A stretch of 64,000 nucleotides of DNA, taken from a virus. The DNA is taken from positions 1-64,000 of IMG/VR virus record IMGVR_UViG_3300020385_000008; one strand, written 5' to 3'. This document shows, piece after piece, positions 2,948-55,329 of the stretch (the stretch's first letter is position 1; each line of letters begins with the position of its first letter). Position numbers and translations under genes: made by a program. The notes under the pieces were generated by a model. It worked only from the letters and a program-made list of their open reading frames with translations, was not told where the DNA came from and made no database searches.

Positions 2948-3562
2948 TTATGAGATCGGCACCTCAATGCTAGTAAGTCTAGCAGCATATTGTAGAGCGT
3001 AATTAGTACGATTACCATGTATACCCCAGCCAAGCCAGTAATATGCCTTTCCCATATAGAAGCCAATGCTTTGACCCCCGGTTTTAAAGGAGGGCTCGAC
3101 CCCTCTCCACTGTCTTTCAGTAAAGAGGAATGAAACTTGAGCTTCAGTTGTTGATGGGTCAAGCCCAATTCGGGCGGCGTGTCTTCCAAGACCATGGTAT
3201 CTATCTGAACTTGTCCATTGAATGAGCCCATAGCCACCACTGCGGCAGCCGTGATAAGACACCCTAGCACCCCCTTCGCAAATGTTCGCATTAAATTTCG
3301 ACTCTTGTTTAATGTTACCCATAACTGTAGCTATGGCATTTCGATCTTCAATTCCACGTTCTTGTAATGCGGTAAGAACTTTTTTTTCTGTGAAAGAAGC
3401 TGTGGGTAATGCCCACTGTGTTTCCATCTTAACGACAGGTTTTTCTGGAACAGATGGCTTTTCTTGATCAATTTTTACAGTAGTATCAATTGGTATTGCT
3501 TGAGACAATTGAGAAGTTAACAAAGTCATTGCTGTTACAGCAAAAGATGTAATAAGTTTCAA
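2948..3562 (-). CDS. Secreted lysozyme-like muramidase
   Basis: 204 aa. A signal peptide is clear: Lys-3, a hydrophobic core (TSFAVTAMTLLTS) and an AxA-like cleavage region near residue 22 (SQA). After a Pro-rich linker comes a domain typical of the phage tail lysozyme family (Phage_lysozyme2): GNIKQES with the likely catalytic Glu, then SGGYGLIQWTSSDR. It probably cleaves peptidoglycan glycan strands from the periplasm. It is separate from the larger two-domain endolysin at 4184-5401, so this phage has at least two muralytic genes in one lysis region. Confidence 0.8.
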   Translation of the reverse strand: MKLITSFAVTAMTLLTSQLSQAIPIDTTVKIDQEKPSVPEKPVVKMETQWALPTASFTEKKVLTALQERGIEDRNAIATVMGNIKQESKFNANICEGGARVSYHGCRSGGYGLIQWTSSDRYHGLGRHAARIGLDPSTTEAQVSFLFTERQWRGVEPSFKTGGQSIGFYMGKAYYWLGWGIHGNRTNYALQYAARLTSIEVPIS

Positions 3563-5427: not shown

Positions 5428-6490
5428 CTGCCCACGTGACGATAGCATATCTAATACCACTTGTTATCTCCTCAATTTTATGAGGGAACATATAATTAGC
5501 TGGAAATATACAAATATCACCAACATTCAAATTAGTAATGTACTTATCATAACAGTGACGCAAGGCTCCACCTTCATAGTCTTCATTCAATTGAATGATA
5601 AGAGTAATTTCTCTATTATACTCTGAGTACTGATCGGTATGGTAGTCATATTTTCCTCCAGGAGTATACCTTAGACAATTATATCCTGCATCCATAGAGA
5701 CCTTAAAATCATTAAACTCTCTACAAAAATCACGCAGCGCTTTACTAACATACATATTGATTGTCGAGTCAATAGAATCATCGGGAGTTAAATGTAAATC
5801 ATCACATAATCTACCTATATCTGTACAAGTTTTACCAGAAGAAACTTCAGCCCTTTTCCATCTGCTTGAGTATTCATCACTAGTTATAACATCCACAATT
5901 TCTCCACAAACTTTACGTGGAACCATACTCCTATAAACTTTAATATAGTCACTCAAATTACCAGTTTTGTTTTGAAATTGACTTTCACATTCTCCACCTA
6001 GGAAAACATAATGGTGAAATGTTTGAATATACTCCTCCCCACAGTACTCCTCTCTCCAATGAACGGCATTGGGTCCGTCATATATAACTGCGTCACCTGG
6101 CTCTAGATCAATTGATACCTCTTTCCCATCTTTATTTTCGATATAAAATTTAGATTCAGCATCTCCATCTAGGTGGATGCTTACAGATACTTCACACGCA
6201 TCTTTATCAGTATGTTTCTCTAAATTAGATTTATTTTTATAAATTCTACTATAAGTATATGTTGGTAATAATTTTGGACCACCAATACAATCATTTAAGA
6301 ACGCAACTTTTTCGGAAGCAATGGCAGAAATTTCAGTAAAATTATAGTATCCACGTCTATTAGGTTGAGCTTCATCAACCCCCTCCTTACTATTCCTCAT
6401 AGAATTAGCTAGCTGAAGTGCTGTTTCACGTGACAAGTATCCTCTAACAACTTTATAAGTGTCACCGATAACTTCTTGTAATTTTGACAT
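5423..6490 (-). CDS. Tandem 2OG-Fe(II) oxygenase, two domains in one chain
   Basis: 355 aa, about twice the length of a single prolyl-4-hydroxylase-like domain. The first half has an HTDKD iron motif (His and Asp) and a later His in NAVHWREE. The second half (about residues 180-355) has YHTDQYSEYN, an EDYEGG strand and FPHKIEEITSGIRYA with the distal His and the Arg that binds 2-oxoglutarate. Each half therefore looks capable of catalysis, and the arrangement suggests internal duplication. The substrate is unknown. The downstream end abuts the endolysin; the start overlaps the stop of the GIY-YIG gene by one base. Confidence 0.85.
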   Translation of the reverse strand: MSKLQEVIGDTYKVVRGYLSRETALQLANSMRNSKEGVDEAQPNRRGYYNFTEISAIASEKVAFLNDCIGGPKLLPTYTYSRIYKNKSNLEKHTDKDACEVSVSIHLDGDAESKFYIENKDGKEVSIDLEPGDAVIYDGPNAVHWREEYCGEEYIQTFHHYVFLGGECESQFQNKTGNLSDYIKVYRSMVPRKVCGEIVDVITSDEYSSRWKRAEVSSGKTCTDIGRLCDDLHLTPDDSIDSTINMYVSKALRDFCREFNDFKVSMDAGYNCLRYTPGGKYDYHTDQYSEYNREITLIIQLNEDYEGGALRHCYDKYITNLNVGDICIFPANYMFPHKIEEITSGIRYAIVTWAV

Positions 6491-6918
6491 TAATCTTCCC
6501 AGTAGTGCTTTTTAAAATAGCGTCCAAGTATATTATCATTATAGTACATTGGGCTTCCATTGTCCATCTTTTCTCGTAAGACATTGTACTTGAAGAGTGC
6601 TTCTGTCTCCGCATAGTTTGTCTTACCAACGGTCTTATGTAAAGACAATATTTTTCTGTTGAAGTTCTCTTTACCAAACTCCTTCGCATCAGCTTTTAAC
6701 TGGTCGTTAGAACCATAATATTTCTTCCAATCACTTTCAGAAGTTACTCTACGCTTACCACCTTTAGGCTTTCGCTTCTGAACAAAATACTTTCTACCCA
6801 CATACTTTCTACCAGTGAGCTTATTCTCAATAAGGTATAAGAACCCATAATAATCTTTTATCTTTTTAGAAGTAAAAGGTTTCCCTCTATACATCCAGGG
6901 GTTCTCGTAATCTACCAT
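6490..6918 (-). CDS. GIY-YIG type endonuclease (SegE-like)
   Basis: 142 aa. FLYLIENKLTGRKYVGRKYF near residues 26-45 matches the GIY-YIG core (xYxI then YVG) with the conserved following Arg; an Asn-containing motif occurs near the C-terminus (YYNDN). This resembles the Seg family of T4-like phages, DNA endonucleases often mobile between phages, but no DNA-binding domain is apparent, so it could also be a domesticated nuclease. It is coupled to the oxygenase gene downstream (TAATG). Confidence 0.75.
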   Translation of the reverse strand: MVDYENPWMYRGKPFTSKKIKDYYGFLYLIENKLTGRKYVGRKYFVQKRKPKGGKRRVTSESDWKKYYGSNDQLKADAKEFGKENFNRKILSLHKTVGKTNYAETEALFKYNVLREKMDNGSPMYYNDNILGRYFKKHYWED

Positions 6919-7124: not shown

Positions 7125-7454
7125 CTATGAGAGATCAGATATAGCAAATCCTACCTGAGTTGTAAACGTATCACCCAAATCGTTTACAGCTTCATATTGA
7201 TAGTTAAAAATACTGTCTAATTTTTGTACTGCTAGACTGAGAAGACCTGCAGAAGTGAATCCCGTAGGTGCTGTACTGGGAGTTACAGAAACTGATGTCT
7301 CTACTATTGATGTAAAAGCAGCACTAGATGTGGTGTATCCAGCAGCAGGGAAAACATATTCTACTTCAAGATCCCATTGGACTGTAAAACCTGTGGTGTT
7401 AGATGTTGTTGGAGTTATACTCAATAAAGTCTTATCGCTATTATTAGCGTACAT
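7125..7454 (-). CDS. Hypothetical Thr/Ser-rich protein, 109 aa
   Basis: Composition is rich in Thr, Ser, Val and Ala with few Lys or Arg, like a beta-strand virion or fibre-type domain (SVSVTPSTAPTGFTSAG). No family recognised. It follows the sigma70-like promoter and conserved leader at 7483-7547, so it may be expressed early despite its structural look. Confidence 0.55.
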   Translation of the reverse strand: MYANNSDKTLLSITPTTSNTTGFTVQWDLEVEYVFPAAGYTTSSAAFTSIVETSVSVTPSTAPTGFTSAGLLSLAVQKLDSIFNYQYEAVNDLGDTFTTQVGFAISDLS

Positions 7455-7482: not shown

Positions 7483-7547
7483 GTACTTAAAGTAACTTAT
7501 CACCCTTGACAAGGCTGATTCTACACAAAAAAAGACCCCCTGTCAAG
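7483..7547 (-). promoter_or_regulatory. Sigma70-like promoter with conserved leader, copy 1
   Basis: -35 TTGACA (7541-7546), 17-bp spacer, -10 TAGAAT (7518-7523), then a leader containing ATCAGCCTTGTC and GGGTGATAAGT and ending in CTTTAAGTAC. A very similar 65-base element lies on the opposite strand at 53375-53439. The -35 sits in the loop of the terminator hairpin at 7532-7558. It would drive the 109-aa gene at 7125-7454. Confidence 0.75.
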
Positions 7548-7558
7548 TAGGAGGTCTT
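7532..7558 (-). terminator. Rho-independent terminator with an embedded -35 box
   Basis: AAGACC/GGTCTT stem followed on the minus strand by a run of seven T. It ends the unit containing the genes at 7562-8136. The loop contains the TTGACA of the next promoter. Confidence 0.7.
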
Positions 7559-8200: not shown

Positions 8201-8770
8201 GTACATAGTGAACGCAATAGTCTTTCTATACGCTTTAGCTAAAGAATTTGGGGCTGACCCTCGATGGTCTCTATGTGCTGCGCATAAACACCCACAGTTA
8301 GGTATAAATGGAACATAGTAATATTCACCTTCTGTGGTATATACAAATTCCCCTCCCCATAGTGAATCCCAGTTGGTATTAAGAAAAATGACAAACGTCC
8401 AACACCCCTCAATTCCATCTTGATGAAAGGTATTTTCCATACCAGGATATTGTATATTTGTATTGATACGAACTAGAGATAATTTTCTTTTTAATATTTT
8501 TTCTGACATTAATTTTATATTACTGCCAACACGAATAAATGCTAGGTTATCTCCTAGCAAATCATCTTTATATGTAATATTAATATTTTTATAGTGATAT
8601 GGTTTTGATATCGCTAGTCTTGGTAATATATCAGATGAATCAATTGAATTATTTTTAACAAATAAATTATTGTAGCTGAAATTAAATTCATCATTTATAA
8701 GAGTAAAATCAGATATTGATAGCACATCCTCAATTTTATATAAGGACGTGCTTATTTCTTTACACTTCAT
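8189..8770 (-). CDS. 2OG-Fe(II) oxygenase
   Basis: 193 aa. FHQDG supplies the His-x-Asp iron ligands, LWGGEF is the usual GGxL/F strand, and AAHRDHRG supplies the distal His with a nearby Arg. The N-terminal 100 residues are diverged and Asn/Ile-rich. The substrate is unknown. It lies directly downstream of nrdB with a 4-base overlap, so it is probably co-expressed with ribonucleotide reductase. Confidence 0.8.
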   Translation of the reverse strand: MKCKEISTSLYKIEDVLSISDFTLINDEFNFSYNNLFVKNNSIDSSDILPRLAISKPYHYKNINITYKDDLLGDNLAFIRVGSNIKLMSEKILKRKLSLVRINTNIQYPGMENTFHQDGIEGCWTFVIFLNTNWDSLWGGEFVYTTEGEYYYVPFIPNCGCLCAAHRDHRGSAPNSLAKAYRKTIAFTMYELP

Positions 8771-9921
8771 AAACTAAATCCAGAGAACTGATCTTCTTTC
8801 ATATCCTGCTTTAATCCCCCAACAATATAGGAGGTAATTTCTGTTTCTTGGGGAGCAACCTGGACACTCTTGGAGTTTAGCCAGTGCTCCGTCCAAGGTA
8901 GTGGGTTGTTTTTGGCTGGGATGTCGTAGATGGGTTCTAACCCAATAGCCTTCATACGACGGTTAGCTACCCACTCAACATAGTTAGACAGTAACTTTTC
9001 GTTAAGACCAATCATAGATCCATCTTTGAATAGATACTCTGCCCATTCTTTTTCTTGCTGAACAGCAGCACGGAATGTGTTGATGACCCACTCCTTTTCT
9101 TCTTTAGCAATCTCCACCATCTCGGGATCATCACCTCTATCCCAATTTTTTAGGATATTCTGGGTGATTACTAGATGTTGTGACTCATCACGTGCAATTA
9201 AACTGATGATTTTAGCAGATCCTTCCATCTGCTTTAGCTCACCGAAGGCAAAACTACAAGCAAATGATACATAGAAACGAATACCTTCTAGGATATTAAC
9301 ATTTGCTACAGCACGGTAGAGCTTACGCTTAAGCTCACGGCGTTCTTCCTGGGCACTACCAACTTCCTCGTGTGCCTGCTCATAGACCTTACGGCTGTCG
9401 TAGTCGTGAGCAGCATTGATAAAATCATTATATGCAGCAGTAACGGCAGTAGCACGTTCTAGGATACGATCATCCTTAAGGATGGTATCAAATACTTCAG
9501 AAGGATCTGAATAGATGTTCTTAATAATATATGTGTAGGAACGTGAATGGATCATCTCCATAAACTCCCACGCTTTCATACAACCTTCTAGTTCAGGTAG
9601 GGAGCAGTATGGTGCAAAAGCCATACTGGGACCACGCCCTTGTACTGAGTCTAAGAGGATTTGATATTTTAGATTACTAGTAAATATATGCTTCTGTTCT
9701 GGGCGCAACTTATGATAATCGGAACGATCTTTCTGAAGAGAAACCTCTTCTGGCTTCCAAAAGAATCCTAACTGCTGTTGAGTTAGCTTTTCAAAAATTG
9801 GATACTTATATGAGTCATACCTCTGAACTCCTAATGGTTGTCCAAAGAACATTGGCTGTTTTTTAGTATCAACTTCGTTAGAATTAAAAACAGTCATTCC
9901 TTCGATACTTTGCGTGGTCAT
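8767..9921 (-). CDS. nrdB: Ribonucleotide reductase class I, small subunit
   Basis: 384 aa, the usual size. The ferritin-like metal ligands are visible: Glu and His in EFMEMIHSRSYTYI and Glu/His in ARDESQHLVI. The protein houses the diiron-tyrosyl radical cofactor that starts reduction of ribonucleotides by NrdA, feeding dNTPs to phage replication. It has its own extended -10 box, separated from nrdA by a long stem-loop. Confidence 0.95.
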   Translation of the reverse strand: MTTQSIEGMTVFNSNEVDTKKQPMFFGQPLGVQRYDSYKYPIFEKLTQQQLGFFWKPEEVSLQKDRSDYHKLRPEQKHIFTSNLKYQILLDSVQGRGPSMAFAPYCSLPELEGCMKAWEFMEMIHSRSYTYIIKNIYSDPSEVFDTILKDDRILERATAVTAAYNDFINAAHDYDSRKVYEQAHEEVGSAQEERRELKRKLYRAVANVNILEGIRFYVSFACSFAFGELKQMEGSAKIISLIARDESQHLVITQNILKNWDRGDDPEMVEIAKEEKEWVINTFRAAVQQEKEWAEYLFKDGSMIGLNEKLLSNYVEWVANRRMKAIGLEPIYDIPAKNNPLPWTEHWLNSKSVQVAPQETEITSYIVGGLKQDMKEDQFSGFSL

Positions 9922-20244: not shown

Positions 20245-20359
20245 ATAAAGGAAGCTGTGCTTCAGCGCTACCAACTTCCCGACGTATTATGGAGCTATAA
20301 TACAATTACAAACGCAATTCGAGGTATAATGAGCCTCGTTCCACTTGATAAGGGTGGAA
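20245..20359 (-). other. Structured spacer inside the tRNA cluster
   Basis: 115 nt between tRNA-Thr and tRNA-Met with no open frame but three consecutive stem-loops: TTCCAC/GTGGAA (20339-20359), CGAGG/CCTCG (20320-20338) and GGAAG/CTTCC (20250-20279). The first abuts the 3' end of tRNA-Met. It could be processing signals, a decayed tRNA or a small structured RNA. Confidence 0.5.
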
Positions 20360-51792: not shown

Positions 51793-52844
51793 ACTTCACA
51801 GGCTTCCATATAAATTTCAGATAATAGTGATTTAATAGAATTCTTATCCAGTGAGCTCTCATCAAAGTCAGCTTCATCAACATAACGGTTTAAGATTGAT
51901 AAGGTATTCTCTTCAGCATCACTAGCATCAAAGTCCTCTGTTTCTTGTACGTTGAAGTTCTCAACGACCTTCATATCAATCAGACCAACGTTGAATAGCT
52001 TGTCTAGGAACTTATCAAAGTCTTTCTGTTTGGTCTTCTTACGAACAACAACCTTAACAATCTTACCCCGGTATGCGGTAGCATTGAATAATTGATGCTT
52101 TGTATCTTCATAATATACGATTGAGAATAGTGTGTTTGGATTGTTTACATACTCAATCTCACCTGTCTCGGTATCAAATAGAACAAAACCACGAGTATCA
52201 TTAACATCATTCCAATACATCTCATAGGGATTACCCATATAAAAGATCTTACCGTCATCAGAACGTGTATGGAAGTGACCTGATAAAACTTTTTCAAACT
52301 TACTAAACTCAGAAGGCTTTACTAGCCCCTTATCATCCTCAAACTTATGACCGCGATATGCCTCAAAACCACCGAGTTCTAGATGACCCATAGCATACTT
52401 TGCTTCACTATTGGTAATCATTTCCTTGGTTCTAGTAAGATTCTCGTCACATATCCAAGGCAACATTAGAATCTTTTCGCCATCTACTGTAATTTCAGTG
52501 GGATCTGAGTAGGTTTTTACATTCCCATAATCTTGTAGAAGAAGATCAGGGGAGTTGGTCCTATTCGTTGACTTGAAATAACAGTCGTGGTTTCCTACAA
52601 CCATATGAACGTCAAAGTCTTTCATTGGATCAAAGACTACACGCTTGGTCCACTGTAAGGAATTGTATTCAATAGATTTTCTACTATCAAAAGCATCACC
52701 CAAGTGAAGGATAGTCTTTACACCACGAGCTTTTAGTGTAGGGAAGAATACTTCTGAGTAGAACTTCTCAAAATGGGCGTGTAGATAGTCAGCACCTTTA
52801 CGTGCCCCAAAATGTGTATCCGTAATAATAGCAACTAAACTCAT
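51789..52844 (-). CDS. 47: Recombination endonuclease subunit gp47 (Mre11-like)
   Basis: 351 aa. Metallophosphoesterase motifs in order: ITDTHFGARK (DxH), LHLGDAFDS (GD), VVGNHDCY (GNHD), GHLELGGFEA and SGHFHTR (GHxH). Forms the gp46/47 exonuclease used in replication restart and host DNA breakdown. Its start overlaps the gp55 stop by 4 bases. Confidence 0.96.
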   Translation of the reverse strand: MSLVAIITDTHFGARKGADYLHAHFEKFYSEVFFPTLKARGVKTILHLGDAFDSRKSIEYNSLQWTKRVVFDPMKDFDVHMVVGNHDCYFKSTNRTNSPDLLLQDYGNVKTYSDPTEITVDGEKILMLPWICDENLTRTKEMITNSEAKYAMGHLELGGFEAYRGHKFEDDKGLVKPSEFSKFEKVLSGHFHTRSDDGKIFYMGNPYEMYWNDVNDTRGFVLFDTETGEIEYVNNPNTLFSIVYYEDTKHQLFNATAYRGKIVKVVVRKKTKQKDFDKFLDKLFNVGLIDMKVVENFNVQETEDFDASDAEENTLSILNRYVDEADFDESSLDKNSIKSLLSEIYMEACEV

Positions 52845-53317
52845 GAGTTAAGCTTGGTAATGATGTTTTCTTTGATTGCGTTGTAATCGTTACGATATTC
52901 GTTGGTTAGATTAGCATCAGAAGTCATTAGGGCTTCAAATCCACTCTTCTCTACAATCTTAGTTTTAATATCAAGCTGTCTCTTCTCTCTCTGAATACGG
53001 CGTAGGAATGCAAAGTAACTAATTTGAGTGAAGTATGCGAATGGGTTCTTTGACTTAGCTGGGTCAAAGTTATGAATGTACTGTACGCAGTTCTCAATAC
53101 CATCGGAGATCATATCCTCGCGGTACATATAGTTTACGAAGTTGGACTTATAGCTGAGATGGGTAGCAATCTTGAGAAAGCAAGATCCAATGTAATTGGT
53201 AATTCGTGGTTTGGGAAGATCTTTAGCAGCAGCTTCAGCTACGCTCTCTCGGTACTCAATGAGAGCATCAAGAAAGTCTCTATTATTAACGTAATGTTCT
53301 GTTTTCGCTTTAGGCAT
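52841..53317 (-). CDS. 55: Late sigma factor gp55
   Basis: 158 aa, T4 gp55 is 185. YMYREDMISDGIENCVQYI and the ENPFAYFTQISYFAFLRRIQREKR-type region (here KNPFAYFTQISYFAFLRRI) form the sigma region 2 helices that melt the TATAAATA box. It binds host RNA polymerase core, and in T4 works with the gp45 clamp and gp33. It explains the late boxes seen throughout this window. Confidence 0.95.
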   Translation of the reverse strand: MPKAKTEHYVNNRDFLDALIEYRESVAEAAAKDLPKPRITNYIGSCFLKIATHLSYKSNFVNYMYREDMISDGIENCVQYIHNFDPAKSKNPFAYFTQISYFAFLRRIQREKRQLDIKTKIVEKSGFEALMTSDANLTNEYRNDYNAIKENIITKLNS

Positions 53318-53340: not shown

Positions 53341-53349
53341 ATTATAGCA
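53341..53349 (-). promoter_or_regulatory. Extended -10 promoter (TGCTATAAT) of gp55
   Basis: TGCTATAAT on the minus strand, 23 bases before the gp55 ATG. Confidence 0.6.
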
Positions 53350-53374: not shown

Positions 53375-53439
53375 CTTGACAAGGGTCTCAAAATGGAGTA
53401 CAATCAGCCTTGTCGGGGGTGATAAGTCACTTTAAGTAC
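53375..53439 (+). promoter_or_regulatory. Sigma70-like promoter with conserved leader, copy 2, on the plus strand
   Basis: TTGACA (53376-53381), 17-bp spacer, TACAAT (53399-53404), then a leader with ATCAGCCTTGTC, GGGTGATAAGT and CTTTAAGTAC matching copy 1 at 7483-7547. It points into the 3' end of the Sm-like gene, so its transcript would be antisense. A weak CTTAAG/CTTTAAG hairpin plus TTTTT follows about 20 bases later. Confidence 0.7.
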
Positions 53440-53449
53440 TTAAGAGTCT

Positions 53450-53863
53450 TTAAGGTTTTTCATATGAATCTATATCTTTATAGAGTTTTTCTAGAGTAGT
53501 CTTAACTTCATTTACATTACCAACGTAACCAATTTTAGAACTAGAGTTACTATATCTTTCTGGTTTAGAATATAATTTAAGTTTTCTTTTAAAGAATGTT
53601 GAATAATCATTTAATATATCAACATCACTAATTTTATATACCGTTAGTATTTTAGTAATATCTATAACGTGTAATGTATCATTTTTAATGCATAACCAAG
53701 GTTCTAATGCATATTTTTTAGGTTTTCTTCTATCCCGTAACACAACTCTTACTGGATCCTTAAAAGAAAGAACAGTGTATCCACTGTCATCTTCTAATTT
53801 TACTAGTGTGCATACAATTTCTTCACCAGATACTAACTTAATAGCTGCTATTTTGTCGCCCAT
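53450..53863 (-). CDS. Sm-like protein, 137 aa (Sm-like copy A)
   Basis: KIAAIKLVSGEEIVCTLVKL at the N-terminus is an Sm1-like strand pair, followed by KDPVRVVL, EPWLCI and DVDILNDYSTFF, the same block order as the 97-aa gene at 35283-35576. The C-terminal 40 residues are basic and extra. Lies between UvsW (5 bases) and gp55; may bind RNA. Function unproven. Confidence 0.68.
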   Translation of the reverse strand: MGDKIAAIKLVSGEEIVCTLVKLEDDSGYTVLSFKDPVRVVLRDRRKPKKYALEPWLCIKNDTLHVIDITKILTVYKISDVDILNDYSTFFKRKLKLYSKPERYSNSSSKIGYVGNVNEVKTTLEKLYKDIDSYEKP

Positions 53864-53868
53864 TGGGT

Positions 53869-55329
53869 TTACCTTAGATTAATGTTTATTATGTCATAAT
53901 TGAATTTTTCTTCATTATATGTCTTAATACGCTCAATCAAATGATTAAGTGTGTAATTTTTATTACTATTTTTCGTTGTATCGTCAGCTATATCATATAG
54001 CATAGCTTTTGATTTGTTAGACCCTTTCCTAAGTACACGACCTATACTTTGTAAATTTCTGATACGTGATTTTGACGGGGAAGCAAATATAACATTATGT
54101 AGATTTTTTATGTTAATTCCAGTACTGAATACACCATAGGAAGCGATAATAATCGCATTATCTTCCCTTTCTGTGATTTCGCGTACTTGTTCTCTTTCTT
54201 CTACATCAACGCCGCCATGTACAAAGAATACGTGGCGCCCCTCTTCCTTCTTACTATTTATAAGATCATTAAGTATTTTTCCGTGATTTTCTACTCTTGT
54301 AAACAAAACCAACGTATTTCCTGTAATGCCCAATGCTAGATTGCTGATAAATTTGTTTCTTTTCTCGTGACTAATGAGATATTGAATCTCATCCTCATAC
54401 TTATTAAACTTTTGCTCATCATGTTTTAATAATAAAACTTTAATATCAAGTTTAGCTACGTGACCAGCTTCCATTAGCTCCTTTGTTCTAATGGTGTTAT
54501 ATGCTGGACCAAATAGTCCTTCCAGTACAAGCTTATTTGTTTGGGTGCCATCAAGAGTACCTGTGAAACCAAAACGATACTTTGCGTCACATAGCTTAGT
54601 CATAATGCTGACTAGACTTTTTGATTTAAAGTTATGTGCTTCATCACCAATAACCACATTAAACTTTTGAAAAAATGGTTTAGGTAATTTGTAGACAGAC
54701 TGCCAAGTAGTAATAGTAACTTGCTTATCACTATGTAACTCCTTACCACCATAAATTTTATGACAGTAAGAACCTACGTCAAATCCATAATCCTCAAAAT
54801 CTTTATACATCTGTTCTACAAGAGATGTAGTAGGGACTACAATAAGAATGTTCTCATTGCGTTGAGCATAGTATGCCACTAGGGCATAGATCATTAGAGA
54901 TTTACCAGACGCAGTTGGAGAAACGATAAGTTTCCTATTTGATTTGAGAGCGGTATAGATCCCGTGGAGCTGATAATCTCTGGGCTTATATGAAGTAATG
55001 GATTTAACCCAATCAGTAACACCCATAGGTGAGATCTCTTCATTTTCTTCATAGGGTAAGCCATAAAACTTATTGTCCCTGAATTCATATGTGTAACCAT
55101 ACTGATCACAAAAAGCAATAACACGATCTAGCAACCCAACATAGATCTGTTTAGTTTGAGGAGAAAATAAATTAATCGTTCCATCCCAATGTCTTTTGCG
55201 GAATGATGGATGAAACTTTGCCCCTGGAACTTCAAATGAGAAAGCGTCACGCAGCTCATATTGAATATGTGGTTCACAATCAATTTGAAGAAACACCTCG
55301 TTCTTCTTGCTGATAATCAAGTCGGTCAT
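53869..55329 (-). CDS. uvsW: DNA/RNA helicase UvsW
   Basis: 486 aa. Superfamily 2 motifs: Walker A SPTASGKS, DEAH box VIGDEAHNF, motif III FGFTGTLDG, and motif VI QSIGRVLRKG. The N-terminal 100 residues form the DNA-binding domain seen in T4 UvsW. It unwinds R-loops and remodels stalled forks, shifting replication to the recombination mode. CTAAATA lies 22 bases upstream. Confidence 0.95.
   Translation of the reverse strand: MTDLIISKKNEVFLQIDCEPHIQYELRDAFSFEVPGAKFHPSFRKRHWDGTINLFSPQTKQIYVGLLDRVIAFCDQYGYTYEFRDNKFYGLPYEENEEISPMGVTDWVKSITSYKPRDYQLHGIYTALKSNRKLIVSPTASGKSLMIYALVAYYAQRNENILIVVPTTSLVEQMYKDFEDYGFDVGSYCHKIYGGKELHSDKQVTITTWQSVYKLPKPFFQKFNVVIGDEAHNFKSKSLVSIMTKLCDAKYRFGFTGTLDGTQTNKLVLEGLFGPAYNTIRTKELMEAGHVAKLDIKVLLLKHDEQKFNKYEDEIQYLISHEKRNKFISNLALGITGNTLVLFTRVENHGKILNDLINSKKEEGRHVFFVHGGVDVEEREQVREITEREDNAIIIASYGVFSTGINIKNLHNVIFASPSKSRIRNLQSIGRVLRKGSNKSKAMLYDIADDTTKNSNKNYTLNHLIERIKTYNEEKFNYDIININLR

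Follow-up and report, generated by a model that had tools for sequence, protein, structure and literature searches.

A predicted promoter family with a conserved start box at fixed sites in the genomes of T4-like marine cyanophages

The window, the whole stretch of 64,000 nucleotides analysed here, belongs to a viral record of 97,656 bases whose nearest named relative is the Synechococcus phage S-CAM7 (Mazuvirus, Kyanoviridae). The record has homologues of NrdA, NrdB, a GIY-YIG protein, gp47, gp55, UvsW and UvsY. A sequence-only reading had described a 65-nt element present twice in opposite orientation, and re-reading confirmed both copies, copy 1 on the minus strand (7547-7483) and copy 2 on the plus strand (53375-53439). 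Each consists of CTTGACA, 17 bp, TAGAAT (copy 1) or TACAAT (copy 2) and a leader through CTTTAAGTAC. Copy 1 lies downstream of the gene for the ribonucleotide reductase beta subunit NrdB (8767-9921, minus strand; annotated in the S-CAM7 orthologue) and overlaps a 10-bp intrinsic terminator on its own strand. Directly downstream of it are a 109-aa open reading frame without a family match (7125-7454, minus strand) and, further on, the gene for a GIY-YIG protein resembling Syn9 gp202 (6490-6918, minus strand; phrog_447); the nrdB and GIY-YIG genes served as markers of this site.

Copy 2 occupies the gap between the gene for the late sigma factor gp55 (52841-53317, minus strand; phrog_234, 3.3e-67), which is transcribed away from it, and the T4-GC_139 gene (53450-53863, minus strand), into whose 3' end it reads antisense. 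It is antisense to all neighbouring genes, including that for the UvsW helicase (53869-55329, minus strand; phrog_16, 5.4e-125). The T4-GC_139 product carries the label 'methylamine utilization', which is misleading because the family is Sm-like: PF16243 was found in 47 of 51 homologues, with the window's own protein below the curated cut-off, and there is a profile match to PDB 3by7 (2.5e-9). This Sm-like family is conserved beside gp55. The gene opposite copy 2 is a member of it, but a literature search gave no link between the family and an antisense promoter.

In copy 1, the -35 box TTGACA is at 7541-7546, the -10 box TAGAAT at 7518-7523 and the start box with leader, CAGCCTTGTCAAGGGTGATAAGTTACTTTAAGTAC, at 7483-7517, with a predicted +1 near 7510-7511 (all minus strand). 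The corresponding features of copy 2 are TTGACA at 53376-53381, TACAAT at 53399-53404 and CAGCCTTGTCGGGGGTGATAAGTCACTTTAAGTAC at 53405-53439, with a predicted +1 near 53411-53412 (all plus strand). Leaders were located both by sequence and by a position-weight scan. The copies are identical at 50 of 65 positions, agreeing at 11 of 12 bases in the hexamers and at 32 of the 35 leader positions after the -10 box; the 17-bp spacers are dissimilar beyond their first few bases. A fuzzy search allowing up to 10 mismatches found no third copy in the window, and neither did the position-weight scan in the 97,656-base record (0 matches in shuffled sequence). The record holds three TTGACA-17-TAnAAT promoters, two of them copies 1 and 2. 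S-CAM7 keeps both copies at corresponding places and has extra ones at 209585 (+) and 64120 (-), the element making up four of its six TTGACA-17-TAnAAT promoters. In the window, the -35 region and the start box contain the two arms of an inverted repeat (TTGACAAGG / CCTTGTCAA), which relatives do not keep.

We assigned both copies to the sigma70/SigA type (TTGACA, 16-18 bp, TAnnnT), with 11 of 12 consensus bases and a 17-bp spacer each. None of the T4 promoter classes fits. T4 early promoters have a -35 box GTTTAC and an A-rich stretch at -40 to -44 (PMC1524935); they resemble the element as strong promoters of a T4-like phage for the host primary sigma factor, whereas the element differs in its TTGACA, its lack of an A-rich stretch and the conserved box that spans its start. 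A T4 middle promoter is excluded by the lack, in either spacer, of a TGCTTtA box 11-13 bases before TataAT, and a T4-like late promoter (TATAAATA) by the -10 boxes TAGAAT and TACAAT. According to reviews, cyanomyoviruses have host sigma70-like early promoters and are without alt, mod, motA and asiA, and the timing of their early, middle and late genes is unsettled. The host primary sigma factor would recognise the two copies as strong promoters of T4-like marine cyanophages, probably early in infection.

The sequence-only reading had proposed an alignment of the element across cyanophages. When run, it showed that the element recurs at fixed sites, with a conserved start box and a spacer that is not conserved. 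A first degenerate IMG/VR scan and related scans yielded, with a position-weight model, at least 95 distinct elements; a second degenerate scan, in which the bases after GGGTT were left free, yielded at least 113. Almost all family copies have near-perfect hexamers 17 bp apart; note that the scan patterns imposed the hexamers and, in the first scan only, TGATAAG. Positions left unspecified were partly conserved too: in the first scan these were C.TTGT..GG.T, in the second those after GGGTT (where S-A follows). In dozens of relatives the spacer approaches randomness, its information being low apart from a few A-rich positions and, among antisense copies, those adjoining the -35 box, whereas the start box is constant, including positions outside the search patterns. 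It extends from about -6 to +12 (about 18-22 bp) and reads CAGCCTTGTCRRGGGTGATAAGT in the window and AACNCTGTNNGGGTTSA in many relatives. No start box without a promoter was found in the genomes tested. By these sequence criteria, both copies belong to a promoter family that extends across the Kyanoviridae and combines TTGACA-N17-TAnAAT with the conserved start box. Genomes carry 1-4 copies, too few for the element to serve these phages as their general early promoter.

The second pattern gave only three matches in 84,980 bacterial and archaeal species genomes, one on a cyanophage-like contig in a Lewinella bin and two on Synechococcus contigs. On QCSL01000004.1 (Synechococcus AG-670-B23; 3020-3063, plus strand), promoter and start box adjoin a tyrosine integrase gene and a tRNA-Ser. 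A divergent promoter there (TTGTCA-17-TATAAT) uses a common -35 and would drive a 113-aa protein with ~30% identity to part of the cyanophage gp61 primase; the locus is possibly a phage satellite using the phage promoter. On CAMBZX010000050.1 (Synechococcus MAG, host bin; 3408-3451, plus strand), the element lies near a resolvase-like gene. Blast matches to Cutibacterium phages and to the T3/T7 replication origin were short (E 0.01-2), each confined to one family of near-identical phages, and were taken as chance. One group of pattern matches (..TATAATATACCTATATTAAATGATAAGGAG) is a different promoter family, its conserved leader resembling a ribosome-binding site, and was left out.

Copies of the family sit at fixed sites, here called A to D. 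Site A, that of copy 2, is occupied in 11 of 12 cyanophage genomes (MITS9220M01, P-TIM68, ACG-2014b, Syn19, S-PM2, S-H35, S-BM1, P-SSM2, Syn9, S-CAM7 and the window's record), always antisense and in the gap between gp55 and T4-GC_139; most of the panel was chosen because it matched the element, S-PM2 and P-TIM40 being included by name. The exception, P-TIM40, has a short gp55/T4-GC_139 gap. P-TIM40 (KP211958) does have a diverged start box (AGCTTGT..) after each of two consensus promoters, at 20283 (+) and 101138 (-); these are perhaps that phage's version of the element. Site B is a cluster of small genes before gp91/gp92 (Syn9, S-H35, Syn19, ACG-2014b and S-BM1). Site C, that of copy 1, has NrdB or TalC on one side and the gp201/gp202 genes on the other (window, S-CAM7, S-H35 and metagenomic loci). 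Site D precedes glutaredoxin in S-CAM7 and is followed ~40 nt further on by a strong terminator, so that the RNA would be ~75 nt long.

Metagenomic site A elements numbered at least 49 plus at least 87 distinct cases (at least 136), all antisense, though many loci are related and relatedness inflates the counts. Among the matches listed, 132 of 134 scorable loci have a divergent -10 box on the gp55 strand (TGnTAnnnT or TAnnnT). In 83 loci this box lies 16-18 bp from TTGTCA, which is the same -35 box read in reverse with a one-base offset; some other loci have a separate TTGACA for the gp55 promoter within the antisense spacer. The shared -35 geometry accounts for the invariant base after TTGACA in the antisense group, a position that is free to vary at other sites. 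In the window, the divergent promoter has the extended -10 TGCTATAAT (53341-53349, minus strand), and its -10 (53346-53341) is 29-30 bp from the copy-2 -35, as in the window's own clade. At this distance the two promoters are adjacent and have no common -35, yet the polymerase footprints should still overlap. Antisense transcription has precedent in a cyanomyovirus, the CfrI RNA of S-PM2 lying opposite psbA and a homing endonuclease gene (PMC2984593); that predicted for the element opposes the Sm-like gene and uvsW instead.

At site C, promoter and terminator are nested. The hairpin AAGACCTCCT-ACTTGAC-AGGGGGTCTT followed by TTTTTGTG (7532-7558, minus strand) has 10 pairs, five of them GC, and a loop of 7 (-14.2 kcal/mol, z -2.8), and its GC-rich stem and following T-run classify it as an intrinsic terminator. 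Its loop holds most of the -35 box of copy 1, and its T-run lies in the spacer. We scanned for TTGACA-N7-T7-NTG-TAnAAT without a stem condition and obtained 79 distinct cases with enough flank, many with a gp201-like gene ~50 bases downstream. In 68 of these 79 promoters with a T-run spacer, TTGACA was enclosed by a stem of 6 bp or more with 3 GC, compared with a mean of 28 and a maximum of 36 when left arms were swapped between loci (50 trials). The stems comprise 61 different sequences; terminator stems thus vary between lineages yet remain paired. Many site C relatives keep the nested terminator-promoter and have lost the start box, indicating that box and promoter can separate. A literature search on overlapping terminator-promoters returned nothing matching, which is weak evidence. 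The nested arrangement is compact and strongly supported by comparison across relatives.

Start boxes match within genomes. Their similarity was 0.784 within and 0.597 between genomes (permutation p 0.0005), whereas spacer similarity was 0.459 and 0.456, respectively. In S-PM2, for instance, both copies (near 162737, plus strand, and 84474, minus strand) carry GGGTTCATGAGA. Matching of boxes but not of spacers favours a common trans-acting reader over recombination.

The promoter anatomy, the fixed genomic sites and this within-genome matching underlie the reading that we consider probable, a family of host-sigma promoters whose start box is read by one phage factor, with mutual exclusion of antisense and gp55 transcription at site A and terminate-and-restart at site C. 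Host RNA polymerase would fire these promoters early, and one phage factor would read all copies of a genome, switching them together; such a reader may be a protein that binds the duplex DNA or one that binds the 5' end of the RNA. At site A, copy 2 would direct antisense RNA at the Sm-like gene and uvsW, and its activity would keep polymerase off the divergent gp55 promoter or vice versa; this would set the timing of gp55 and of the genes upstream of gp55. Copy 1 would end the nrd transcript and start a new one at the same bases, as suggested by the -35 box in the terminator loop and the T-run that forms the spacer. A bolder version, which we put forward tentatively, is a small regulon of 1-4 early promoters with a lineage-specific start box and a single phage reader. 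Its nearly universal antisense promoter would be interlocked with the gp55 promoter, so that the polymerase's choice at a single -35 box yields either late sigma factor mRNA or antisense RNA to the Sm-like protein and UvsW. This would make an early-to-late switch, perhaps with the Sm-like protein as the reader.

The sequence-only reading, which mentioned neither the antisense orientation of copy 2 nor the terminator overlapping copy 1, had taken the conserved leader for a functional 5' RNA. The part of this claim that holds is selection downstream of the -10 box beyond what a promoter needs, as seen in the fixed box, the near-random spacer and the within-genome match. A structured RNA was not borne out. 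The conserved block begins upstream of the predicted +1, and 19 clade leaders gave a consensus energy of only -0.01 kcal/mol for a common fold. Individual leaders of the S-CAM7 clade fold differently, the window's leaders fold no better than shuffles, and an Rfam search of the window returned only tRNAs above the gathering threshold. With a box that begins before the predicted start and no conserved fold, a DNA operator or initial-transcription signal would explain the data as well as a 5' RNA and is as likely. That the transcript rather than the duplex is read, the leader serving as a 5' tag or small RNA that a protein binds or that pairs with another RNA, is possible but rather doubtful. Conservation to about +35 in the S-CAM7/window clade, the ~75-nt RNA expected at site D and the Sm-like gene opposite copy 2 speak for it; besides the early beginning of the block and the missing fold, it has against it that conservation ends near +12 to +17 outside the clade. 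In phage HK022, the same put leader directly follows more than one early promoter per genome and forms conserved hairpins. The leaders of the element likewise follow more than one promoter of a genome directly, but have no conserved hairpin.

A similarly doubtful alternative is that these are plain strong early promoters whose start box only tunes escape of host RNA polymerase, with no dedicated factor. The discriminator and the first transcribed bases do influence promoter escape, and the box was found only with consensus promoters. However, box variants that are shared within a genome and specific to a lineage, beside drifting spacers, are hard to explain by polymerase preference, since related hosts have much the same polymerase.

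A T4-type origin of replication at site A, primed by a transcript from its promoter that forms an R-loop near uvsW, appears improbable. The position beside uvsW is near-universal, the T4 UvsW homologue unwinds R-loops, and in 8 of 10 genomes the minimum of cumulative GC skew falls no further away than 13% of genome length (these genomes are syntenic, so the distances are not independent); the local skew change at the element is unremarkable, however, and copies elsewhere stand in other contexts. Least likely are recent duplications or a mobile repeat homogenised by recombination: copies are dispersed in both orientations with 90-97% leader identity within S-CAM7, but conversion would have carried along the spacers, whose similarity is no higher within a genome than between genomes; different genera use the same sites, and no repeat ends were seen.

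The near-universal antisense promoter beside gp55 suggests an unrecognised control point of infection, in phages that are among the most abundant in the sea. Co-varying start-box promoters and the antisense/gp55 interlock make this control point defined and testable. A novel regulatory element, that of Doron et al. 2016, reportedly controls early genes in Syn9 and is conserved among T4-like cyanophages. Our element may overlap with it in part. Like the early element of Syn9 and P-TIM40, ours is conserved in T4-like cyanophages and would act in early transcription of cyanomyoviruses; Syn9 has only two copies of our element (near 52741, plus strand, and 123733, minus strand), one of them antisense.

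Other conserved promoter-leader combinations were seen. Another phage group has a conserved leader, TATAAT-ATACCTATATTAAATGATAAGGAG, immediately before start codons. A second recurring promoter type, TGCTATAAT followed by AGGTAANCAA, is present 1-4 times per genome, with sites in Syn9 (18628, 130405, 162082 and 165814), S-CAM7 (160132) and the window (851, minus strand).
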